A stretch of 21,830 nt of DNA, taken from positions 1-21,830 of the IMG/VR virus record IMGVR_UViG_3300046532_004634. One strand, 5' to 3'. The stretch is from a virus. Position numbers and translations under genes: made by a program. The notes below the pieces were generated by a model. The model saw nothing but the letters and a program-made list of their open reading frames with translations, searched no databases and was not told the DNA's origin. Positions 8,222 through 21,143 of this stretch are shown piece by piece; position 1 is the first letter of the stretch, and every line of letters begins with the position of its first letter.

Positions 8222-8251
8222 AAAAAAAAAGAGAAACCCGAAGGTTCCTCT
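8222..8251 (-). terminator. Intrinsic terminator with UUCG loop after the lysis cassette
   Basis: On the minus strand the stem AGAGGAACC / GGTTTCTCT (9 bp, one G-U pair) closes a UUCG loop and is followed by nine T. It ends the transcript that contains the holin and the 8494 lipoprotein. Confidence 0.93.
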
Positions 8252-8275: not shown

Positions 8276-8494
8276 TTAATCGTCGGTAGGAATTCCTCCC
8301 GCATACCAACCTTCAGGTAGCTTTACTTTATTCTTGGAAAGAGTCCATTCGCCATCTTTTTTGACGTAAACTCTCCCCGAAACATCGGGCCCGATACGAA
8401 CTAGGTTAGACTGAGTGTCAACAAATACTACGCGAGTCGATCCGCATCCCGCGAGGAATAAGCTAACTAGGATCAGAATCGCTATCTTTTTCAT
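8276..8494 (-). CDS. Small lipoprotein, outer-spanin (Rz1-like) candidate
   Basis: I start this 72-residue protein at ATG 8494, which has a GAGGAG Shine-Dalgarno site 7 bases upstream; a start 96 bases earlier would bury the signal peptide. MKKIAILILVSLFLAGC is a textbook lipoprotein signal with lipobox LAGC and Cys17. The mature part holds VRIGPDVSGRVYVKKDGEW and KVKLPEGWYAGG, a pattern I recall in small phage lipoproteins encoded next to holins. It lies in a holin cassette and begins inside the preceding small gene, as Rz1 genes do. An outer-membrane spanin subunit or lysis lipoprotein is likely; a typical proline-rich Rz1 body is absent. Confidence 0.78.
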   Translation of the reverse strand: MKKIAILILVSLFLAGCGSTRVVFVDTQSNLVRIGPDVSGRVYVKKDGEWTLSKNKVKLPEGWYAGGIPTDD

Positions 8495-8636
8495 TTTTTG
8501 ACTCCTCTTCCCGTATGCGATTGCGCCACTTGTCTTTAAGGTTTTGGGGCGTAGCGTCAGCGTCTCCCGCTTTCGTATCTTCACGAGCAAGCCCTGTTAA
8601 CCAATCTAAGACGGCCTTGAGTAAGCTCGCCCACAT
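8463..8636 (-). CDS. Small lysis-cassette protein overlapping the lipoprotein gene
   Basis: ATG at 8636 opens a 57-residue frame. Residues 1-17 form a hydrophobic, Trp-containing segment (MWASLLKAVLDWLTGLA) that could sit on or in the membrane. The rest is charged (KDKWRNRIREEESKNEKDSD). It begins 7 bases after the holin stop and overlaps the start of the lipoprotein gene by 32 bases in another frame. The nested layout resembles Rz/Rz1 pairs, but the protein is much shorter than a normal inner spanin and lacks a long coiled coil. It may be an unusual spanin partner, a holin regulator (antiholin) or a membrane-associated accessory. An AAGG lies about 12 bases before ATG. Confidence 0.65.
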   Translation of the reverse strand: MWASLLKAVLDWLTGLAREDTKAGDADATPQNLKDKWRNRIREEESKNEKDSDSDPS

Positions 8637-8643
8637 TAGTGTT

Positions 8644-8859
8644 TTATGCCTTTTTCTTGGCTAAACCTCTGGAAACCGTATATCCAAGAGCACTAAGTGC
8701 GGAACATACGAAACCAAAGGCCTTGTCGGCTCCTGACTCTCCGCCAGCTTCGACGAGACCCGCGCCCCAAGCCAAAGAGGCTAAAGCGACTACGACGGTT
8801 ACCCAAAACTCGGTACTTTTCCAACCAGGTTTTACTTCAGTATTTTTATTAGCTGCCAT
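8644..8859 (-). CDS. Holin-like membrane protein
   Basis: This is a 71-residue protein with a polar N-terminus (MAANKNTEVKPGWKSTEF), two hydrophobic segments at about residues 18-36 (FWVTVVVALASLAWGAGLV) and 47-65, and a basic tail (GLAKKKA). This is the layout of small class II holins, and 'KPGWKSTEFW...LGYTVSRGLAKK' matches holin-like proteins I recall from marine phages. It would form membrane lesions at the end of infection. It leads the lysis cassette and lies between the tubulin-like gene and the two small lysis genes. No endolysin is seen in the window. The start lacks a Shine-Dalgarno site and carries the AGTGTATAA motif 9 bases upstream. Confidence 0.82.
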   Translation of the reverse strand: MAANKNTEVKPGWKSTEFWVTVVVALASLAWGAGLVEAGGESGADKAFGFVCSALSALGYTVSRGLAKKKA

Positions 8860-8879: not shown

Positions 8880-10052
8880 TTATTCTGGTAAGTCGCCTAA
8901 TTTCTTAAGCTGGCTTATTTTTTCTTGAGGTCTTGCTAATCCACCAATTGAAGAGAAGACGTTTAATGTAGGTTTATCTCCGCTGTAAATTCCTCGATGG
9001 ACTACGCTGTTGGGTCTCATCATTTTGGAGAGCTGATCGAATGCTTGATCTAAGTAGCTCTGAGGAATAGTGTTGAGCTGCTCTGTGCCGCCAATAATTA
9101 TAGCAGCGGCAGAATTTCCAGTGCTTAAGTCAATTCCTCCCGAAAGTAAATTATTCCTTAGATTTTCTCGGACCGCGCGAGCAATGCTGATGGAATCTTT
9201 CCATTCGGAAACGGGTGAAGCCCCGAAAACGATCAGTCCAGAATCTAAAACCTGTCTGTAATCATTAGAATCGAAAGAAGAATAAGTGCTATCTTTAGCA
9301 GCGGTGTGATTGAAGAGATGGAAAAGTCCAGCCATGCTTTGATTGGCGACGTTCCAAAATTCTGACACTACTAAATTTGGATAAAGTTCTCCGATCTTTT
9401 CATTATCGATTAAGATTAACGGAGAAACAATTCCTTGGTCTACTAAATCATAGACCTGATCTAAAGTATTCGCGGCGTTAGCATTTACTTTTTTACCCTC
9501 TGAAGCCTTTGGCAACGCTAATATAACTCCTACTTTTTTTGAGGAACCTCCAGAAGCTTGAGTTTCTATGGCTGATCTCACAGCGGGAACGACGGAGCCC
9601 GCTCCCGTCCCTCCTCCAGCTCCAGCACAAATAAAAATTTTATCTACATCGTCTCCGAAAGACCTTTTCATAAAGTCAGATATATCTTCGCTTTTTTCTT
9701 GATAAACTTGGGCGGCGACTTCTGGGGCTTTTCCCGCTCCTCCGTCCCCAAAACATAATTTATTTTCTAAATCTATAGAATTTAAATCCTGTTGCGCGGT
9801 GTTGATAACCGCGATTCTTCTGTACCCTAACTTATGAAAATTTTCAGCGATGCGAGAACCCCCTTGACCTGCTCCAAGGAATGCGAACTTAAACGCTACA
9901 TCCACCTCGTCTTTTACTACTTTTTTCGTTTTGTCTTTTTGTACGGGGGGAATCAAGATGTCGGGCATTATTAGATCGGTGGGCATTTCGCCGTAAGTCA
10001 CAGATTTAATGTGATTTTCTTCCATGCTGTCTGGTTTGTTTTCTTCGCTCAT
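8880..10052 (-). CDS. FtsZ/tubulin-like GTPase
   Basis: This is a 390-residue protein. After a 50-residue acidic leader, residues 53-70 (AFKFAFLGAGQGGSRIAE) form the first beta strand and the GAGQGG T1 loop. ICAGAGGGTGAGS (141-153) is the tubulin/FtsZ signature GTP loop. INTAQQDL (84-90) matches the T3-side 'NTD' strand of FtsZ. The segment FDSNDYRQVLD (260-270) sits where the T7 loop supplies catalytic acids to the next subunit. The C-terminal domain continues to residue 360 with an IIIGG strand. Phage tubulins (PhuZ, TubZ) build filaments that centre or move DNA or capsids. Unusually, the gene follows the portal directly (1-base gap, GGAA before ATG), which suggests coupling to head assembly or DNA packaging. 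Fold assignment is strong; role is inference. Confidence 0.88.
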   Translation of the reverse strand: MSEENKPDSMEENHIKSVTYGEMPTDLIMPDILIPPVQKDKTKKVVKDEVDVAFKFAFLGAGQGGSRIAENFHKLGYRRIAVINTAQQDLNSIDLENKLCFGDGGAGKAPEVAAQVYQEKSEDISDFMKRSFGDDVDKIFICAGAGGGTGAGSVVPAVRSAIETQASGGSSKKVGVILALPKASEGKKVNANAANTLDQVYDLVDQGIVSPLILIDNEKIGELYPNLVVSEFWNVANQSMAGLFHLFNHTAAKDSTYSSFDSNDYRQVLDSGLIVFGASPVSEWKDSISIARAVRENLRNNLLSGGIDLSTGNSAAAIIIGGTEQLNTIPQSYLDQAFDQLSKMMRPNSVVHRGIYSGDKPTLNVFSSIGGLARPQEKISQLKKLGDLPE

Positions 10053-10053
10053 A

Positions 10054-12081
10054 TTATTTTTCCGCTTTTAAACTTGACGCTAATATACTAGCTAAATAAA
10101 AATCTAGTTGATGCTTGGTCGCTATTTCTCTGACTAATTCTACTCGTTCAGAATTATGATCTATCGGCTGTTCGCAATATTTCTTAACATTTTTTTCCCA
10201 TCGACTAGGACTTTCGTTAGCTATTATAGTCTCAGATATTTGAATAGCAACTTCTTTCTGGGATTTATTTAATCTTTTTACTTTGTGGATTTTTCTAAGC
10301 TGCGTAGCCACAGACCCTTCTAGCTTTTGGGCTAAAATCATATTATCCTTAACTTTATCCAGACTATAGGCTCCAGCTTGCCCAAGCGGGGAAATTTCCC
10401 TGTTCTCTTGAGGGATTCCAGTAGTTCCTTCGGGTCTGCCAGCGTCCTTGGGTAAGCTCTTAGGTTTTTCCTTATCCCCCGATTCTTCCACTTTTATGGT
10501 CTGAGCCAAGGGGCTTCCTCCCACCAACGGAGTATATAAGCCGTCGTTCCTTTGCTTCATGTACTCTTTTTGATTTTCTAACGAAGTCTCCTTATCGGGA
10601 AGCCTTCCTGTGTCAATAGCAGTTAAGGTTTCTTCGGGGGTGAGTACTCCTAGCTCCAGCAGACGAGAGTAAACTCTATCCTTCAACACGCTGTCTTGTA
10701 GAGACATCTCATCGAAGTAAGGGATAGGGTAATTCTTAAATCCTAAATTTTTAGAAATCCTTTTTATCTCAGGAATTAAGAAGTTGTTTAAGAAGGCTTG
10801 ACGCCCTTGTTCTAATCTAGAAACAAATACTTTAACCTTGCTCTCCTGATTAGAAAACTTCTCGCCCCCCACTAAAATGTTATTAAGCCCGTTGTTGATA
10901 TCTCTATCAAAAATTTCATATTTTTTAGGGTCCATTAGCTCCGCTATCTTAGGAACCACAAACTCTGCTTTAGTCGTGTAGTCCGCGATAAGAACCCTTC
11001 CCACTGATTCGTTTCGGAAGAGGTCTTGCATCGCTTGTAAGTTGCGCTGATTAATACCCCCCTTTTCGGGATCAGTACCCATTGTCACGAGCAATATAGC
11101 TTGCTGCATACAACGGCCAATGGCCATATCCATTTTTTTAAGCTCGTCTTTAAAGCTTATATCCGCTAATACGGGATAGCCCATTGGAACTGCAAAGGGC
11201 TCGTAATCTTGCTTTTTATAAAAAACCGCCATAATTCTATCTACGTCCAAGGGAATCTGAACGGCGGCGCTTCTGGATGTGTCAATTTGCTTCTGCACGT
11301 TTTTAGGAAGCGAATTGAACATTTCTTTGTCTTCTTCGGTTTTGCGGGTTTTTAATCTCTCCAGCTCGTAATTAGTTACTAGCTTATAATATATGGGGTT
11401 ATTAAAAGCTAACGTACCTGTCATCCTAATATCGGCAGGATTAACAAGCATATAAGAGCTAGGAATTTTATTGTCGCTTTCCAAAGCTAAAGATAAAGTA
11501 TTTCCAAATGTTTGGGTTATCTTGGATAATTCTTCATTAGTTAACTTAGCGTCGAACCTATATATGAAAACGTTTCCTGATCTGTAATATTCCCTAAAAA
11601 ATTGATCCTGAAAATCCCAAATATTTAATTTATTGAACAAGGCTTCGAAAAATGTTCTAGCTTTCTTGCTCGCTCCTCGAAAGTATATATTTCCTAAAGA
11701 AAATTCCGTCATTAAATCAATGACATTTCTAAATTGAGAAAAATTATAATAAGCTTTTTGACATAAAATTACAGCATCTCTGACATCTAAGCTTCTGGAA
11801 CCGCTATTTCCATATTCGTAAGAATACTTAAAAGGCACTAGTCCGTTGGAGATATTTATGTATTTATCCGTTCTTTCTATAACCGCTGCTTTATTTCGAC
11901 GAGTAGAAGTGACTCCCGTGTTGATGTTCGCTGCGGATTCATAAGCCATGAACGGGGTCGTGTCCTCGCTTGCCGAAGCCTTGCTCGTCATCTTTTTAGC
12001 TGCTTTTTTGGGAGCTTTCCGAGGAGAGCTTGAAGCTTTTGCTCCCTGCGTGGATTTACTTTTCTTGGGTTGCTGGCTCAT
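10054..12081 (-). CDS. Portal protein
   Basis: This is a 675-residue protein immediately downstream of the terminase. Residues 1-40 are a Lys/Ser/Ala-rich disordered tail (for example SSSPRKAPKKAAKK). The body has portal-like features as in T4 gp20-type proteins: FREYYRSGNVFIYRFDAKL, YMLVNPADIRMTGTLAF, DRIMAVFYKK, then a long helical part including GINQRNLQAMQDLFR. The extra C-terminal region from about residue 560 is helical and charged and may be a clip or crown extension. A dodecameric portal forms the DNA entry channel and binds TerL. Assignment rests on size, order beside terL, and segment patterns. The start lacks a Shine-Dalgarno site; AGTGTAATA ends 11 bases before ATG. Confidence 0.87.
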   Translation of the reverse strand: MSQQPKKSKSTQGAKASSSPRKAPKKAAKKMTSKASASEDTTPFMAYESAANINTGVTSTRRNKAAVIERTDKYINISNGLVPFKYSYEYGNSGSRSLDVRDAVILCQKAYYNFSQFRNVIDLMTEFSLGNIYFRGASKKARTFFEALFNKLNIWDFQDQFFREYYRSGNVFIYRFDAKLTNEELSKITQTFGNTLSLALESDNKIPSSYMLVNPADIRMTGTLAFNNPIYYKLVTNYELERLKTRKTEEDKEMFNSLPKNVQKQIDTSRSAAVQIPLDVDRIMAVFYKKQDYEPFAVPMGYPVLADISFKDELKKMDMAIGRCMQQAILLVTMGTDPEKGGINQRNLQAMQDLFRNESVGRVLIADYTTKAEFVVPKIAELMDPKKYEIFDRDINNGLNNILVGGEKFSNQESKVKVFVSRLEQGRQAFLNNFLIPEIKRISKNLGFKNYPIPYFDEMSLQDSVLKDRVYSRLLELGVLTPEETLTAIDTGRLPDKETSLENQKEYMKQRNDGLYTPLVGGSPLAQTIKVEESGDKEKPKSLPKDAGRPEGTTGIPQENREISPLGQAGAYSLDKVKDNMILAQKLEGSVATQLRKIHKVKRLNKSQKEVAIQISETIIANESPSRWEKNVKKYCEQPIDHNSERVELVREIATKHQLDFYLASILASSLKAEK

Positions 12082-12102: not shown

Positions 12103-13935
12103 CTAACGGAACATTTGCGGCAAAAACGTAGAATTTATTTCGTTTTCATTCGTAGCCTTGTTATCATTGTAGCATTTAAGTCCCCAATTAGCTAACATTA
12201 AAGTAGTGTAATTATCTTTTCTAGCTCGATGGGGAGAGGTGCTTCTTTTTAAGTGCTGCGGTAAATCAAATGTTTGAGTGCCTTTAGCCGTAGTTTTTAC
12301 CTCTACTAAGGCACATTGCTTTTTGGTGGAATATATTAAAGTGTCTTGAGCTTCGATAAATTCGCCTATATTATTTTCTTCTACTAATTTTAAATTTATA
12401 TTGTAATTAGATTGCTTGTCGAATACAGAACCATTCGCTGTAGTTCTAGAGGCAAACCATAGTTTTTTATGGTCAATAGCTGCCTGAAGGTGCTCGTTAG
12501 CTTTTCTTAAGAAATCGCTAGTAAAGTTTTGTTTAAAGCAAATTCTATGGTCAGACTTATTCAGGTCTCTTTTTAAGCGTCTGATCTCCTTATTGTAATC
12601 TTCCCCCTCTTTGGCAGCCTCAAAGTCTAAAAATTTTAAATTTATTCCCGCATTAACAAAATTCTCAGATTCATTGCAGCTATCTAAAAATTGATACCCC
12701 GCGTTATCGATAACAATTAATCCAATATTAAAATTAGTGTAAAGATAATATAAATAATTTATGTGCTGTTTTAAGTCTCCCCCCGCTACCGCATAGCTAT
12801 GGACCAAAGTTCCCTGTCCAGTGTCCTCATCCACTTCCAATAGCGACATAGCGAAAAAGTCAGAACTTGGACTATTGGAGAAAGAGGGATCGATTCCCAA
12901 GATGTAGCTCCCCTTACTCTTCCCCCTTATCAAGGTAGTGGGGGTTTCGCCGTCAGGGATGGTGCATAAATGCATTTTTTGGGCGCTAAAATAAGAATCT
13001 GATCCATCGGTAAATTGAGCGCAGTACTCCCTTAAAAAAGAGGAGTGGGATGCTCCCCCATCTTGAGCTTCTTCTATGACGGTTTTATCTATCATTTCTT
13101 CAGGTAAGGCTTCGTACCCCATCTGCGAAATAAAATAATTAGCATCGCTTACATCCTCGGAATAAATCTTATTGGTCCATTCCCTGTAAGTTTTATACAA
13201 GTTCTCAAAAGTATAAGAAGCGGAGGATAGTGCTATCATCTTAGAGTTATTTCCGAACACCATTCTATCGTCCTCTTTCATTTTGCCCTTTTTAATTAAG
13301 TCGTCTTCCATGCCTCTAATTTCTAATCTCTCCTTCATATCCTGCGGAGCAACTAAGAAAGGCATGAGAACAGTATTGATTAGCTCCTCTGGCAGCAAAA
13401 GAAACTCATCCAATAAAAGAATGTTTGCTCTGAAGCCGCGAATTTTTTCGCCATTAAGAGGAATCGCCGTAATCGTGCCCCCATTAATAGACCATTCGAA
13501 TTGATCATTTCTCTTCGAGGGCTTCGTCGAGAAAGCTTGTTGTAATAATTCAGCACCTTTAGAGGTAACGAGTTTTTCTAAATTAGTAAAAATGAATCTT
13601 GCTGTACGAAAAGTAGGTCCAGCTATAAGAATTTTAGTTCCAGGATTAAAAATACATTGAAGGAAACAGAACACTGAAGCTATGAAAGTCTTTCCGCAGC
13701 CACGACCCCAAACACACATAGAAAAATTTCTATTCATCATTCCCTTCAGCGTAATTTCTTGATAGGGGGCGAGTTTGATGCCTGAGAGTAATTCCGTAGT
13801 AATGCCTATATTGGAAGACAGGAACTGAGCTAAAGAAATCCTAGCCTCTTTATCTTCCAGGGTTCCCTTCAACTTTAAAAGCCCTAAATTAGTATCAGGA
13901 ACCTCTTTTTTGTATTTATCTGGGCAATACCACAT
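12103..13935 (-). CDS. terL: Terminase large subunit
   Basis: This is a 610-residue packaging motor. The Q-like motif is LAPYQE (residue 59). Walker A is WGRGCGKT (76-83), Walker B is ILLLDEF (172-178) with catalytic Glu177, and the coupling motif is SSAS (237-240). The C-terminal RNase H-like nuclease has acids at Asp349 (ILGIDPSFSNS), Asp410 (GLIVIDNAG) and Asp574 (RARKDNYTT). The arrangement is that of T4 gp17-type terminases. It would cut concatemers and pump DNA through the adjacent portal. The start has neither a Shine-Dalgarno site nor the AGTGTAATA motif; 44 bases separate it from the ERCC4 nuclease gene upstream. No small terminase is obvious, but the 361-residue protein at 15641-16726 could fill that role. 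Confidence 0.95.
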   Translation of the reverse strand: MWYCPDKYKKEVPDTNLGLLKLKGTLEDKEARISLAQFLSSNIGITTELLSGIKLAPYQEITLKGMMNRNFSMCVWGRGCGKTFIASVFCFLQCIFNPGTKILIAGPTFRTARFIFTNLEKLVTSKGAELLQQAFSTKPSKRNDQFEWSINGGTITAIPLNGEKIRGFRANILLLDEFLLLPEELINTVLMPFLVAPQDMKERLEIRGMEDDLIKKGKMKEDDRMVFGNNSKMIALSSASYTFENLYKTYREWTNKIYSEDVSDANYFISQMGYEALPEEMIDKTVIEEAQDGGASHSSFLREYCAQFTDGSDSYFSAQKMHLCTIPDGETPTTLIRGKSKGSYILGIDPSFSNSPSSDFFAMSLLEVDEDTGQGTLVHSYAVAGGDLKQHINYLYYLYTNFNIGLIVIDNAGYQFLDSCNESENFVNAGINLKFLDFEAAKEGEDYNKEIRRLKRDLNKSDHRICFKQNFTSDFLRKANEHLQAAIDHKKLWFASRTTANGSVFDKQSNYNINLKLVEENNIGEFIEAQDTLIYSTKKQCALVEVKTTAKGTQTFDLPQHLKRSTSPHRARKDNYTTLMLANWGLKCYNDNKATNENEINSTFLPQMFR

Positions 13936-13979: not shown

Positions 13980-14912
13980 TTAAAGGATTTTCTTGTCGTA
14001 ACTTAATTGTAAATCAATTTTTTTGTAAATGCACTTAGAAAAAAATATCTTTTCTATAACCCTCACTGACTCCTTTCTCCCCTTGACGAAGAGAAACTGT
14101 ATATGATCATACTTTTGGATCATCCCTCGGACTTTATGAAATATAAATTCAGGAGTCACTCTTATTTTTTTGGAGATATAGGGAAGGAAGGGGAAAGATA
14201 AGGCGTTGGTAAGGGTATCGTCTATTACTATGATTAAATTAGCATCATTTTCTGCCGCCCTTTCAATTTCGCGGCAAAACCTATCGTAATTTAAGACACT
14301 GATAGTCGAAATAAAATCCGCTAAAGACTTCCTCTCTATATAGCAATTACAGGTTAAAGATTTTTCGCTTAAAGCGTAATCTCCGAACTTTAAGCCTTTG
14401 ACTTCTGTAGGCAAATTAAATTTTAAAGGCAATTGTTCGCGACTGTCTATGTAGACTTTGCAGTCCTTATCGAAGCTCCCAGTTGTTATATTTTGAATTT
14501 TCTGATATTTATTTTTAAACCCTAGCGATTTACAAAGATCATAATAATCATTAAATTTTTTTTCAAAAGATATTATAGACGGGCAAGCTAAACTACGAAG
14601 CTCTACTTGACAGGGGGAGTAAACTAGGCCTTTCTTCTCTTTTCTCTCGGTTAATATTTTTTTTAAATAATCCTTTGCTTCTTTTTCGGGCAATTTATCT
14701 AACCACTTCAATTGGTTAGTCTTCGTATTGAATTGAGTATTTAAATAATACTCTTTGGATTTGAACTTAATTATTTTCCCATCATGCAAATCATAGCGAG
14801 GGCAGTACTTCTGGTAATACGCAGCTATTCTGAGGTCATGTTTCTTGAGATGAGAATGGAGTTTCCTCTCCGTCTCAAATTCCTGATCACACGCTTTGCA
14901 CTTAAAAGTCAT
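13980..14912 (-). CDS. C2H2 zinc finger fused to an ERCC4-type nuclease
   Basis: This is a 310-residue protein. Residues 5-25 form a classic C2H2 finger: Cys5-x2-Cys8-x12-His21-x3-His25. A linker with basic segments follows. Residues 150-300 are an ERCC4-family nuclease: YIDSREQLP (Asp156, Arg158, Glu159), FGDYAL (Asp178) and YIERKSLADF, giving the GDx(n)ERKx3D signature (Glu193, Arg194, Lys195, Asp199), then YDRFCREIERA and a hydrophobic strand LIIVI. ERCC4 nucleases cut branched or flap DNA, as in XPF/Mus81. Its place directly upstream of terL suggests a role in resolving branched replication concatemers before packaging, like T4 gp49, but by a different nuclease family. It overlaps the sulfotransferase gene by 11 bases. 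Confidence 0.85.
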   Translation of the reverse strand: MTFKCKACDQEFETERKLHSHLKKHDLRIAAYYQKYCPRYDLHDGKIIKFKSKEYYLNTQFNTKTNQLKWLDKLPEKEAKDYLKKILTERKEKKGLVYSPCQVELRSLACPSIISFEKKFNDYYDLCKSLGFKNKYQKIQNITTGSFDKDCKVYIDSREQLPLKFNLPTEVKGLKFGDYALSEKSLTCNCYIERKSLADFISTISVLNYDRFCREIERAAENDANLIIVIDDTLTNALSFPFLPYISKKIRVTPEFIFHKVRGMIQKYDHIQFLFVKGRKESVRVIEKIFFSKCIYKKIDLQLSYDKKIL

Positions 14913-15639
14913 ATTTAAATCTTTTAATATCTTCCTCGTAAAGTCTATTTATTATTTCTTGGTTTCTTTTGGTATAAAATTTTCTATAGTCGGGTTTGTG
15001 GTAAATTTTCCCCGTTTGCTCCAAAGGTTTAGCTTCTATCCCGTGCTTTCTTAAGATAATATTAAAATCAATTTTTAATTTTTCGAATTTGCAAATATAA
15101 TCCATTTCTATTTTTCCGCTTGATTCGATCCACATACTTTGAGGCATTATCCATCTTCCGTACAAGCGGTTTTCTAAAGCTCCAATACTATCATAGCGCG
15201 GGTCCGCATTTAAATTCGACTGGCCTTCTAGTCTCTCGATGAAACTGGAAAAAGATGTTTTAAATTTCAAAAAGAGCTTTTGATCAACAAATCTATTTTT
15301 TTTGTCATTTAATAATTTGCGCCCCTTGGCCCATGCTCGGGCCCTTCCTTTCTTCCCGTCCTGCGGATGTTCGCCCCTTTCAGAAATATATTGGTAATAA
15401 ATCACTTCGGCGTAAGACCACAAAAACCACGACAGTAATCTATCCCAAGGGTTTCTTACTATGGTAAATTTGAAATAATTTTCAATTTTACAATATTCTT
15501 TTGACTCTTCTAATGTGGAGTATTGAGACTCTTTCTTGTTCATCGGGGCGCAAGGGCAAAAATTAAAAAAATTTTCTATACTAGACCCCCCCGTCCTGGG
15601 GATGTGAATGAATAGCAATTTTGGTTTTTCTAAGATCAT
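14902..15639 (-). CDS. PAPS-dependent sulfotransferase-like protein
   Basis: This is a 245-residue protein with the two PAPS-binding motifs of the carbohydrate sulfotransferase-2 family. The 5'-phosphosulfate loop is FIHIPRTGGSS (10-20), and the 3'-phosphate motif is TIVRNPWDRLLSW (59-71) with Arg62 and Ser70. The C-terminal half is Lys/Tyr-rich and holds IGALENRLYGRWIMPQSMW. No signal peptide or transmembrane helix is present, so it acts in the cytoplasm of the infected cell. Likely substrates are a glycan or another phage or host surface molecule; none is visible. It lies 1 base after the preceding gene and overlaps the nuclease gene, so it is embedded in the late/packaging transcript and not in the sugar block. 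Confidence 0.82.
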   Translation of the reverse strand: MILEKPKLLFIHIPRTGGSSIENFFNFCPCAPMNKKESQYSTLEESKEYCKIENYFKFTIVRNPWDRLLSWFLWSYAEVIYYQYISERGEHPQDGKKGRARAWAKGRKLLNDKKNRFVDQKLFLKFKTSFSSFIERLEGQSNLNADPRYDSIGALENRLYGRWIMPQSMWIESSGKIEMDYICKFEKLKIDFNIILRKHGIEAKPLEQTGKIYHKPDYRKFYTKRNQEIINRLYEEDIKRFKYDF

Positions 15640-15640
15640 C

Positions 15641-16726
15641 TTAATTTAAGATTTCGCCTTCCGATATTCCCATTATTCTTGCTTTAAGTTCCTCCATCGT
15701 GGTTAATTTTTCGATTTCCTCTTCCACGGCTTCCCTGCGAAGGTTAGCGAGCCTAATCATTTTATGCCGCGATTCCTCCGACTTCCATATCTCTACTAAA
15801 TTTAGGATGCTGGCGTTTTCTTTTAATTGATTTTTTAACCTGTCGCTCCTTTTCTCCTTTAAGCTTTCTAATAATTTTTGTTGCCTATTTACTGATTGAT
15901 GATATTCGTTTTGAGCCGTGTTAATTGCTTCAACTAACGACATTGCGATTCTTCTTCCGTCGCTATCATTAGCCGCGTCATCTAATAAGTTCTGCAAATG
16001 TTCTACCCTCTGTTGAATGTTTGAGGCGATTACCACCTCGGAAGAAAGGACAATGTATTGATCTACTTCTTCTTGAGTCAAATCATTCTTATCGCACGTA
16101 TACCTTACGAAGCTCGATTCGAAAAGGTCTCGTGCTCCTATAGAGTTATAACTATTAATTTGATGAATGAATCTATAGGTATTCATATAACCCAATAGAG
16201 AGTCTATGTTTTTCTTCTCTTTAGCGACGAGCTTATCTTTATCCCACTTCTTGTAAATATATTTATTAATTTTCGATAACGCTAAACTAAATGTCGAAGG
16301 AGGTTTATATTCATCGTGGGTAATATTAATTTCCTCTGAAGAGTCGTGAGAGGGGTCTATCTGTTTTATATAAGCCTCTGCGACTTTAGCCTCTTTATTT
16401 AAATTAGTTATTTTTTCGTTTGCAAAAATTACTCTAGCTATTTCAACGAAAGTCATCAGTTTATAGTTATTATCTATAAACTCTTTATGCTCTGGAGTTA
16501 ATTCTATTTCTTTGGCTTGGTATTCTTGAGAAGCTCTAGCTTTAATGCTCTGGCTCGCGAGAAAAGCTTTGACCGCTTTCCCCTCCTTGCTTCTACCGTC
16601 TACATTTTTATCGGGGAAAGTTACATTTATCAAGTCTAATAGAGAGGGAGGGTTATCGGGTCTAGAATTCCACTCTTCGAGAATAGCAGCTTTTTGGTCT
16701 TCAAGTAAAATTATTTTATCGCTCAT
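15641..16726 (-). CDS. Coiled-coil protein with duplicated N-terminal module, possible small terminase
   Basis: This is a 361-residue protein of unknown family. Residues 8-56 and 76-120 look like two copies of one helical module: 'FPDKNVDGRSKEGKAVKAFL' aligns with 'FANEKITNLNKEAKVAEAYI', each after a helix and a DLI/EIA segment. This suggests two helix-turn-helix-like units. Residues 145-361 are highly charged helices, probably coiled coil. The gene starts with the ATGA overlap of the sigma-factor gene and has a good Shine-Dalgarno site (GGAGAGG, about 10 bases upstream). N-terminal DNA-binding modules plus a coiled coil, close to terL, fit a small terminase or a transcription co-factor, but neither is proven. 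Confidence 0.6.
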   Translation of the reverse strand: MSDKIILLEDQKAAILEEWNSRPDNPPSLLDLINVTFPDKNVDGRSKEGKAVKAFLASQSIKARASQEYQAKEIELTPEHKEFIDNNYKLMTFVEIARVIFANEKITNLNKEAKVAEAYIKQIDPSHDSSEEINITHDEYKPPSTFSLALSKINKYIYKKWDKDKLVAKEKKNIDSLLGYMNTYRFIHQINSYNSIGARDLFESSFVRYTCDKNDLTQEEVDQYIVLSSEVVIASNIQQRVEHLQNLLDDAANDSDGRRIAMSLVEAINTAQNEYHQSVNRQQKLLESLKEKRSDRLKNQLKENASILNLVEIWKSEESRHKMIRLANLRREAVEEEIEKLTTMEELKARIMGISEGEILN

Positions 16727-17406
16727 ATAATATCTACCTCTCCTTTTTCTAAAGTTTTTTTAACTTTTTCTATAATGGACTTTTTTATATTTTTAATGTG
16801 TTTGTAACCAGGAGGTCTCCCCTCTTCAGAGGTCGTGTAATTCATTATTTTAGCCACCTCTTCATCTGATTTATTTTCGATATAAATTAATTGATAAACA
16901 TTTCTTTCAAGCGGTTTAAGCTTAGATAACATGACTTTGTGAAGTTTATCCTTGTTGGACTCAAAGCTGTCGGAACTATAAGACAAGTTTTTGACCTCTA
17001 TGGAGTGATGATCCAAAGAAACGGGTATCTTTAAATTCTGGGCATCTTTTTTATTTTTACTCCAATACTCGTAAAGGGGGCACGAATTACACTGTTTCTC
17101 AAATAATTTACATTTATCCGTCTCTTCTGCCGCCGCGCACTTTAAACATGGCCTAGTAAAGTTTCCGTAATTATTTCTTATTAAATTTTTAAGCTGATTA
17201 GAGATTATTCTGTTCAGCCAAGGTCTCAAGGGCTGCCTAGGGTCATAAAGGCCCCATTTTTTAAATACATGTATTTTAATGATCTGGGAAACGTCATCGA
17301 AATCCATCCACGCCAGAGACTGCAAGTTCCACTTACCTCTTCTCTTCCGTACTTCTTCATCGATAATGGGGATGCACTCTTCAAATGTTCTCGGCGTATC
17401 ACTCAA
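16723..17406 (-). CDS. Sigma-70-like factor with a cysteine-rich insertion
   Basis: This is a 227-residue protein. Residues 34-80 look like sigma region 2 (MDFDDVSQIIKIHVFKKWGL, then RPWLNRIISNQLKNLIRNN). Residues 162-220 form a region-4-like helix-turn-helix (LKPLERNVYQLIYIENKSDEEVAKIM). Between them lie Cys87, Cys90, Cys99, Cys106 and Cys109 (PCLKC...CKLF...CNSC), a probable zinc site that ordinary ECF factors lack. It should direct host RNA polymerase to phage promoters, as T4 gp55 does for late genes. The start is TTG: the frame is open back to a TAG about 54 bases upstream, and TTG is the only plausible initiator there. It lies 1 base after the stop of the zinc-ribbon gene, suggesting coupled translation. 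Confidence 0.8.
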   Translation of the reverse strand: MSDTPRTFEECIPIIDEEVRKRRGKWNLQSLAWMDFDDVSQIIKIHVFKKWGLYDPRQPLRPWLNRIISNQLKNLIRNNYGNFTRPCLKCAAAEETDKCKLFEKQCNSCPLYEYWSKNKKDAQNLKIPVSLDHHSIEVKNLSYSSDSFESNKDKLHKVMLSKLKPLERNVYQLIYIENKSDEEVAKIMNYTTSEEGRPPGYKHIKNIKKSIIEKVKKTLEKGEVDII

Positions 17407-18848: not shown

Positions 18849-19799
18849 CTATTCAGCGTCAAAGAAAAACATATGAAATAATCGAGAGTTTTCTTTATTA
18901 TCACCAAAATATTGAGAAGCGGCATGTACAAGCTTGGCATCCCATATCGCCATCCTGTTATACACGTTTCCCACTACGTCCACTAAGTCCCAAGGAGATT
19001 TATCGTAAAAATTACCCCTAAACATATCCCAGTAAAGCTCATCGCTAGATTTGTTTAAACTAGCGCAATCTTCTTCCGTGGGAAAATTTCTCAGGCCATT
19101 TCCCCTGTGCTTAAAAAAACTTGTGCCGCCTTCTGGTGGCGCATTTGGAGTGAGGAAAACTACAGCGGCATATTTTTGACCATCGGTATGATAGACTAAT
19201 TGGTCTTCGGCGGTGCAAAATTGAAATACCCCGTTGTGAGGTTGATTACCCCAACTAGTTATTTTCTTTTTTAAAATATCTTCGAAAAACTCATAAGTAC
19301 CATCGAAAAGGGTTTGTCGCGGGGTGCGTTGTCCTTTATGATGTGCTTTGTTGTGCTGAAACTCTAAGGAAAGGGCGTATTCCCTGACCTCATCAGGATT
19401 TTTATAAAAATTATCTATGGCAATGATACTGGGGCAAGCATTTCCTATTTCGCCTTGGGGCTGATTAGGGGCATGGTGGGGGTTGTCAACTCTTATCACT
19501 GGCAACAGCGTATCACGCTCGTCACCAATGCTACAGAAAAATTCGCCCTCTTTTACTTCTTCTGCGCTTTCAAAAGAGATTATAAATCCCACAGATTTAG
19601 TGGCATTCGGGTATACATTAAATACGTCCTCCCTGTCATGGAAAGTATGTTCGGTGATTTCTTTGTCGCCCCATCGGAGAGTTATCTCATTAACATTTTT
19701 ATTAAAATGTAGAATCCAACCCTTTAATGTGAAAACGTCTCTCTTTTTTTCAAAAGCGTCTAAATGAAATTTTATCTCAGGATGTGATGTATCATGCAT
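18849..19799 (-). CDS. 2-oxoglutarate/Fe(II) oxygenase-like protein
   Basis: This is a 316-residue protein with two parts. Residues 1-105 form a beta domain with GWILHFNKNVNEITLRWGD and DVFNVYPNATKSVGFIISFE, a pattern I recall in modules attached to glycan-modifying enzymes. Residues 122-316 look like a 2OG/Fe(II) oxygenase: His204-x-Asp206 (VYHTDGQKYAAVVFLTP), GGTSFFKHR, and His292 (MAIWDAKLVHAASQ) with Arg306 as a possible 2OG-binding residue. Such enzymes hydroxylate proteins, nucleotides, lipids or sugars. It overlaps the dehydratase gene by 8 bases and ends the sugar block, which points to a surface-glycan or cell-envelope substrate. The metal triad is visible; the substrate is unknown. 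Confidence 0.75.
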   Translation of the reverse strand: MHDTSHPEIKFHLDAFEKKRDVFTLKGWILHFNKNVNEITLRWGDKEITEHTFHDREDVFNVYPNATKSVGFIISFESAEEVKEGEFFCSIGDERDTLLPVIRVDNPHHAPNQPQGEIGNACPSIIAIDNFYKNPDEVREYALSLEFQHNKAHHKGQRTPRQTLFDGTYEFFEDILKKKITSWGNQPHNGVFQFCTAEDQLVYHTDGQKYAAVVFLTPNAPPEGGTSFFKHRGNGLRNFPTEEDCASLNKSSDELYWDMFRGNFYDKSPWDLVDVVGNVYNRMAIWDAKLVHAASQYFGDNKENSRLFHMFFFDAE

Positions 19800-20736
19800 A
19801 ATGTGCGATAGTCTTTAGTAATCCGCGCTTAAAGGTATGAGAAGGCTTCCAAGAGAGCTTAGAACGCATTTTAGAAGCGTCAATGGCATATCTGAAATCA
19901 TGCCCCAGTCTATCTTTTACGAATTCTATTGACGTAGAAAAATCAATATTCAATGCATTGCACACGGCTTCTATTACTTCTAGATTTGTTTTTTCACAAG
20001 TAGCTCCGACATTATAAGTTTCGCCTACCGTACCCTTAGTCAAGATTTTCCATATACCATCGCAATGGTCTTCTACGTAAATCCAATCTCTCACGTTGGA
20101 GCCTTGCCCGTATACAGGGATTTTTTTTCCTTTGAGCAGACTGGTTAGAATGGTGGGGATAAATTTTTCCTTATGTTGATTAGGTCCGTAATTGTTAGAG
20201 CAATTAGAGATAGTGATGGGAAGTCCAAAGGTATGATAAGAAGCTCTCACCAAGTGATCTGAAGCAGCCTTAGAAGCGGAATAGGGATTGCGGGGATCAT
20301 ATGGTGTAGTCTCTTTAAACTTTCCCTTATCGCCCAGACTCCCGTAAACTTCGTCCGTCGATATATGATGGAACCTCTCCACCTTATTACGCGTAGCTGC
20401 TCTTAACAAATTGTTGGTTCCAGTAATATTTGTGTCGATGAAAGGGGAGGAATTTTTTATAGAATTGTCCACATGAGTTTCAGCAGCGAAGTGAACTACG
20501 TGAGTGGGCTGATACCTTCGGAAAACATCGGTGACTTGAGGCATACTAGTGATGTCTAAGTGTCTGAAGCAGTATTTAGGGTATAATTTAAAGCTTGAGC
20601 AATTTTTTTCATTAGAGGCGTAAGACAGGCAGTCTACATTTAATAGGCTTGTCACTTGCTCGCCGCAAGTATCTAAAACATATTTTATAAAGTTGGAGCC
20701 AATAAAACCTGCTCCCCCTGTGACTAAAACCCTCAT
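19792..20736 (-). CDS. rfbB: NDP-glucose 4,6-dehydratase (RmlB-like)
   Basis: This is a 314-residue extended short-chain dehydrogenase. The NAD-binding loop is TGGAGFIGSNF (6-16). AAETHVDNSI (84-93), ISTDEVYGSLG (125-135; Thr127, Asp128, Glu129) and YSASK (152-156) are the RmlB active-site motifs. NCSNNYGPNQ, EKFIP and NVRDWIYVEDHC complete the substrate pocket, and RLGHDFRYAID follows near the C-terminus. It turns an NDP-glucose (dTDP or UDP) into the 4-keto-6-deoxy sugar, the first step to rhamnose. The partner acting next is probably the bifunctional enzyme at 21140. The start is preceded by AAAGAG, 5 bases after the stop of the nucleotidyltransferase gene, so the three genes form one unit. 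Length and motifs are normal. Confidence 0.94.
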   Translation of the reverse strand: MRVLVTGGAGFIGSNFIKYVLDTCGEQVTSLLNVDCLSYASNEKNCSSFKLYPKYCFRHLDITSMPQVTDVFRRYQPTHVVHFAAETHVDNSIKNSSPFIDTNITGTNNLLRAATRNKVERFHHISTDEVYGSLGDKGKFKETTPYDPRNPYSASKAASDHLVRASYHTFGLPITISNCSNNYGPNQHKEKFIPTILTSLLKGKKIPVYGQGSNVRDWIYVEDHCDGIWKILTKGTVGETYNVGATCEKTNLEVIEAVCNALNIDFSTSIEFVKDRLGHDFRYAIDASKMRSKLSWKPSHTFKRGLLKTIAHYA

Positions 20737-20741
20737 ACTCT

Positions 20742-21143
20742 TTAGAGGATAATATCTTTTTGCAAACTACTCAAGGTGTTAGTCGTGGAATATTTTTCTA
20801 TATAATTAAATAGGACGACTTTGGCAATATCATTGCCCACCACCTCGTTCTCCTCGTAGTCTCCCCCTTTTACAATCTCGTCTGGTTTTAATTCTTTTAT
20901 TAATTCGTAAGGGGTGTCTTCGTCGAAAATTATCACTTCGCCCACGCTTTCGAAAGCCTCTAACACAAATTTTCTATCTTCTTGATTAAATATAGGCCGC
21001 GTATCACCCTTTAGTCTTTTAACGCTTGAATCGCTATTTAAGCCTACCACCACTTTATCTCCCCTCGACTTGCAAAATCGTAGGAGCTCTACATGCATCC
21101 TGTGAATCATGTCGAAACATCCATTGGTGAAGATAACTTTCAT
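20742..21143 (-). CDS. Cytidylyltransferase-like (HldE C-domain) protein with HRMH
   Basis: This is a 133-residue protein of the nucleotidyltransferase fold. It opens VIFTNGCFDMIHRMHVELL, continues VVVGLNSDSSVKRLKGDTRP and EDRKFVLEAFESVGEVIIFDEDTPYELI, and has IVKGGDY and YSTTNT, all typical of the adenylyltransferase half of HldE/RfaE, which makes ADP-heptose. The usual HxGH nucleotide-binding motif is His14-Arg-Met-His17; the glycine is Met. Catalysis may be impaired or altered. The gene overlaps the reductase gene by 4 bases (ATGA) and precedes the dehydratase, so it should activate a sugar phosphate, or have a related role, in the same pathway. Confidence 0.85.
   Translation of the reverse strand: MKVIFTNGCFDMIHRMHVELLRFCKSRGDKVVVGLNSDSSVKRLKGDTRPIFNQEDRKFVLEAFESVGEVIIFDEDTPYELIKELKPDEIVKGGDYEENEVVGNDIAKVVLFNYIEKYSTTNTLSSLQKDIIL

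Follow-up and report, generated by a model that had tools for sequence, protein, structure and literature searches.

Tubulin-like proteins of phages are known mainly from nucleus-forming jumbo phages. PhuZ, the tubulin of 201phi2-1, phiKZ and other Chimalliviridae, forms treadmilling filaments on which empty capsids move to the packaging site (PMC7950403), and such work is thus possible for a phage tubulin. Outside the nucleus-forming phages, a 2025 survey recorded tubulins only in 'a handful of large phages' (PMC11835377). TubZ, found on Bacillus plasmids (structures 4ei7 and 2xka) and in phage c-st (3v3t and 4xcq), forms DNA-partition filaments; in the Bacillus and Clostridium proteins a cofactor is recruited by the C-terminal tail, and in Pseudomonas phage tubulins the C-terminal tail serves polymerisation (PMC3678025). 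A search of the literature returned no paper describing a phage tubulin encoded next to the portal gene. Here we describe a predicted family of TubZ-like tubulins which is widespread in uncultivated phages, is encoded in the packaging operon and carries a conserved motif in an N-terminal tail.

Results

A GTPase gene among head and packaging genes

The window (the whole stretch of DNA analysed) is a 21,830-base IMG/VR virus record, IMGVR_UViG_3300046532_004634. It is a linear fragment with nearly all of its genes on the minus strand, as are all of the features described here. Carbohydrate, PhoH and ERCC4 nuclease genes accompany that for the terminase large subunit (12103–13935; Pfam Terminase_6N, E = 7e-10; phrog_2, E = 2.5e-22), which is only 22–30% identical to its counterparts in SPbeta-like and Bacillus phages. 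The next gene (10054–12081) encodes a protein of 675 residues that has no Pfam or PHROG match on its own. It is called the portal protein because its relatives in the portal alignment match three PHROG portal families (best E = 1.2e-11), because it lies 3' of the terminase, and because YonE of SPbeta is a weak match to the portal profile (12 chains, E = 0.065). Its stop codon (TAA) is followed by a single base (T) and then by the ATG of the GTPase gene (8880–10052; 390 residues), which confirms the one-base spacing given in the initial annotation.

Downstream lie genes for a small hydrophobic, holin-like membrane protein of 71 residues (8644–8859; phrog_297 holin, E = 0.16 only) and a spanin-like lipoprotein (8276–8590; phrog_456 Rz-like spanin, E = 0.006). 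The annotated position of the GTPase ahead of lysis genes is weakly supported by these matches, and no endolysin was identified within the window. Also present are a gene in the position normally taken by the prohead protease or scaffold and a presumed capsid gene. A terminator-like hairpin with a T-run, picked up by a consensus scan (8230–8251), may mark the end of a terminase–portal–GTPase–holin unit; it is a weak candidate because promoter and terminator scans around the GTPase locus return site numbers near those expected from shuffled sequence.

Several other genes of the window deserve mention. Genes for a sulfotransferase (14902–15639), a DUF6445 protein (18849–19799), an NDP-sugar epimerase (19792–20736) and a cytidylyltransferase (20742–21143) adjoin the packaging genes, and a 162-kb relative encodes several glycosyltransferases as well (contig G015). 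A sigma-70-family factor (16723–17406; TIGR02937, E = 2.6e-12) is a possible switch for late-gene transcription. At the window's edge, a collagen-like GNQG-repeat protein (1–2244), interrupted at two points by copies of a non-repeat domain and running off the window, is probably a fibre or appendage.

The GTPase is a predicted tubulin closest to TubZ

The initial annotation had read this gene as a tubulin/FtsZ-like GTPase. By sequence and predicted structure its product is indeed a member of the tubulin/FtsZ superfamily, with profiles of that superfamily matching it and the modelled fold being of the same type. The Pfam Tubulin profile PF00091 matches with E = 2e-12 (48.2 bits against a cut-off of 33) and the FtsZ model TIGR00065 with E = 5e-19, while phmmer finds TubZ (4ei7, E = 1.3e-18) and FtsZ (about 1e-12), both of which are matched more strongly by a profile of 33 relatives. 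The T1 nucleotide-binding loop (GAGQGG, residues 60–65; 9858–9875) and the T4 tubulin signature (AGAGGGTGAGS, residues 143–153; 9594–9626) are present as first quoted. In the former, G60, G62, Q63 and G65 are invariant among relatives; the latter contains the G-box signature GGGTG(T/A)G and was placed by alignment with FtsZ and TubZ. The segment FDSNDYRQVLD (residues 260–270) had been suspected of being a divergent T7 loop, which proves not to be so. The catalytic loop FDSNDY (residues 260–265; 9258–9275) is aligned by phmmer with VDFADV of FtsZ such that D261 and D264 match the FtsZ catalytic aspartates, and both are kept in all 57 relatives that reach the T7 region. In FtsZ and tubulin the acidic T7 residues act only across the subunit interface, completing the active site of the neighbouring molecule, and the retention of D261 and D264 therefore argues for polymers. 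Close relatives for which dS is computable give dN values of 0.05–0.08 against dS >1, indicating purifying selection on the GTPase.

A confident AlphaFold model made with the alignment of these 33 relatives as input (mean pLDDT 83.7, pTM 0.83) has a two-domain fold with a central helix H7 (residues 229–251). The closest fold (Foldseek, VIA-align 2) is that of TubZ (Z = 36.3, 2.5 Å over 331 residues, 23% identity), tied with CetZ2 (Z = 35.7); FtsZ, which also shares the fold, scores about 31 at about 22% identity. In a library of viral structures the best match is A0A6J5RW92, an FtsZ cell division GTPase from an uncultured Caudovirales phage (30% identity).

TubZ, the closest relative in both fold and sequence, has the same GTPase and T7 elements. 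A TubZ–TubR partition cassette was nevertheless rejected: beside the GTPase there is no gene for a TubR-like helix-turn-helix protein, its neighbours being the portal and membrane protein genes, the locus has no tubC-type iterated repeats or repeat array, and the long TubR-recruiting C-terminal tail is absent from the model. Assignment as FtsZ was likewise rejected, since the protein misses the NCBIfam ftsZ equivalog cut-off by far (68.8 against 295.2 bits) and the FtsZ-type C-terminal peptide that binds FtsA/ZipA is absent from it and from the 32 relatives listed. PhuZ appears to be much more distant. A comparison of the GTPase family with a single PhuZ sequence aligned 95 columns only (hhalign probability 32), the PhuZ match to the model in BFVD has 14% identity, and the acidic C-terminal knuckle of PhuZ is absent, the C-termini being KLGDL-like among the relatives listed. 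PhuZ chains are missing from the structure matches listed, an absence that carries no weight as a test.

The nearest named phage relative is gp138 of Bacillus phage G, a 'putative FtsZ-like cell division protein' found with a diverged member of the family (25% identity over 85%; hhalign probability 98.9). The gp138 gene lies at L172:14989–16119, where the record names the product only 'xxxxx'; it is a clear distant relative of the GTPase.

A conserved motif in a disordered N-terminal tail

Residues 1–50 (9903–10052) form a tail that is predicted to be disordered. Residues 1–41 are the only disordered stretch of the model (pLDDT <50), and the first aligned residue in most structural alignments with FtsZ or TubZ is 49–54. 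Within this tail lies a conserved motif, Y20..D26-[IVL]-x-[MLIV]-P30-[DE]31-x-x-x-P35 (residues 20–35; 9948–9995), whose anchoring positions hardly vary in dereplicated sequences (Y20 and P35 in 59/59, D26 in 58/59 and P30 in 57/59). The pattern has 139 matches in GTPase open reading frames, redundant loci included, and none in the other reading frames of the fetched loci (1.9 million residues scanned). We consider this motif the clearest sign of a putative docking peptide. At the other end, the chain stops with KLGDLPE directly after the last helix (residues 376–385 and five more in the model). Thus, where TubZ has a long C-terminal tail, this GTPase has a motif-bearing N-terminal one, together with its location in a head operon. 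Bacillus phage G gp138 is without this N-terminal tail, its similarity to the family starting at gp138 residue 5.

A tail of this kind could instead serve a weapon against host division, with the GTPase co-polymerising with host FtsZ, capping it or competing for its partners so that a longer cell has more space for new phage. FtsZ itself binds its partners in this way, through a short motif within a disordered tail, and the similarity to FtsZ (TIGR00065) is clear. We regard this explanation as quite unlikely: the motif is acidic and has none of the basic residues found in the C-terminal peptide of FtsZ, identity to FtsZ of about 22% makes co-polymerisation doubtful, and genes for host takeover are as a rule early ones located away from the head operon.

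The portal–GTPase pair is inherited together

The order seen in the window is kept in 46 of 58 dereplicated loci, where the GTPase lies directly behind a portal gene with portal identity down to 46%, so that the adjacency first noted here is conserved in relatives. One gene intervenes in 8/58 loci and more than one in 4/58. Among the adjacent pairs collected first, the spacing ranges from -4 (an ATGA overlap) to about 11 bases. The gene downstream of the GTPase differs by clade, being holin-like in many relatives and something else in others. Distances between GTPases and between portals are correlated (Mantel r = 0.77, reached by 0/999 permutations), which indicates joint vertical inheritance of the two genes; median identity is 62% for the GTPase and 54% for the portal. 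The supposition that known phage tubulins sit away from packaging genes held in the two cases checked, the PhuZ gene of 201phi2-1 having neighbours of unknown function, none of them annotated for packaging, and the gp138 gene lying among nucleotide-metabolism genes and not behind a portal.

In one clade a 1.3-kb insert separates portal from GTPase. A second tubulin was considered for this place and rejected, the insert being a hypothetical gene of another kind. In other clades too, a hypothetical gene without a family match immediately follows the portal (L054:8398–9708 and L034:3903–5633), in L054 lying between portal and GTPase.

Phage operons keep their gene order by descent, and adjacency therefore need not mean interaction. 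Taken from the gene arrangement, the conserved neighbourhood and one-base spacing show presumptive co-expression and not shared function. It is accordingly worth considering that the filament positions the phage genome or its replication site, in the manner of PhuZ or TubZ, and is expressed from the head operon for convenience, its portal neighbour being meaningless. The closest folds belong to DNA-partition filaments, some relatives have other genes between portal and GTPase, and PhuZ centres phage DNA besides moving capsids (PMC7950403). Nonetheless we think this unlikely, if still a serious contender, given that the locus has neither a TubR-like neighbour nor iterated repeats and that the GTPase stays beside the portal while the gene on its other side is exchanged.

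The family is widespread and absent from some relatives

IMG/VR scans with a deepening query profile found 17, 18, at least 120 and finally at least 225 stretches encoding relatives of the GTPase. Among named phages (50,697 records, tblastn) there is no relative of the window's GTPase, portal or capsid. Two pattern scans of 84,980 bacterial genomes, which are weak because they cover one genome per species and need matching patterns, also returned no relative of the GTPase, and ten long contigs contain no second copy.

Loci fetched by the portal alone show that the GTPase is not universal. Of 93 such loci, 16 encode it; from 35 it is missing over a stretch of at least 4 kb, and the other 42 are truncated too early to judge. 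In 19 longer records without the GTPase (up to 133 kb; none known to be complete) no tubulin was found anywhere, and such relatives have homologous portal and capsid proteins. Some five changes on the portal tree account for the presence or absence of the GTPase, which is strongly clustered there. Because some relatives, including the 133-kb contig, are without it, the GTPase appears to be conserved but dispensable for head building. Entire clades of nucleus-forming phages have likewise lost PhuZ (PMC11724907).

A linker in the portal protein (residues about 525–543; compared with relatives such as L027, L031 and L200) is long in most GTPase-bearing phages and has 15–18 residues in 22/24 GTPase-less relatives. 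A tie between linker length and GTPase presence, though striking to the eye, was rejected, as it amounts to only ~3 independent contrasts and is not significant after allowing for ancestry.

Two further explanations were weighed. The first is a GTP-driven assembly chaperone for the portal or scaffold that forms no long filaments, which would fit both the closeness of the portal gene and a disordered tail for binding partners. It is very unlikely in our judgement, since relatives build portals without the GTPase and the T7 catalytic pair, whose known role is only between subunits, is strictly kept. The second is a segregation protein that maintains the phage genome as a plasmid in lysogeny or pseudolysogeny, as TubZ-type proteins of some phages are described to do with the phage chromosome during pseudolysogeny (PMC7824862). 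The window shows neither an integrase nor a partition partner, the GTPase is co-directional with head and packaging genes, and the two pattern scans of bacterial genomes gave no relative; we hold this explanation to be highly improbable.

Discussion

We tentatively favour, at a little short of even confidence, a polymerising phage tubulin that is made with the head proteins and uses its tail to dock a cargo or adaptor, which may be the procapsids or their portal. The GTPase probably shares one transcript with the terminase and portal genes; both this co-transcription and a late timing of expression are inferred. As a protein of the TubZ/FtsZ type it would bind and hydrolyse GTP to form a dynamic filament late in infection, polymerisation itself being inferred from the kept T7 pair. 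GTP would sit between neighbouring subunits, the T7 aspartates of one triggering hydrolysis in the next, and hydrolysis across subunits would let the filament pull or treadmill. A docking motif for cargo or adaptor would be provided by the disordered N-terminal tail. The likeliest cargo, at a guess, would be the procapsid (via the portal or another head protein), or else the membrane or DNA site at which heads are filled.

A place beside the terminase and portal genes suggests a function while heads are being assembled, and the initial annotation had gone as far as proposing a filament for capsid placement or DNA packaging. The tubulin fold and conserved portal adjacency agree with that proposal, while the 12/58 loci with intervening genes and the relatives without the GTPase speak against it; a role in packaging or capsid placement is a reasonable hypothesis rather than a finding. 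It would resemble the capsid trafficking of PhuZ, though nothing here points to a phage nucleus. Chimallin has no match in six long contigs, by an insensitive search with no positive control. More specifically, the family might be a class of phage tubulin in its own right, found beyond the nucleus-forming jumbo phages and devoted to assembling heads or packaging genomes. Its filament would capture procapsids or the portal via the tail motif and carry them to where packaging takes place, so that a cytoskeleton would serve assembly in the absence of a phage nucleus, a proposal which we consider doubtful though well worth entertaining.

What emerges is a distinct and deeply conserved putative tubulin that travels with the portal gene in an uncultivated and diverse lineage, represented by at least 225 IMG/VR loci, with GTPase-less relatives offering a natural comparison. 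If the GTPase does move or place heads, tubulin-based capsid trafficking would be older and broader than the phage nucleus. The family hints that uncultivated bacterial viruses may build a cytoskeleton of their own while they assemble and fill their heads.
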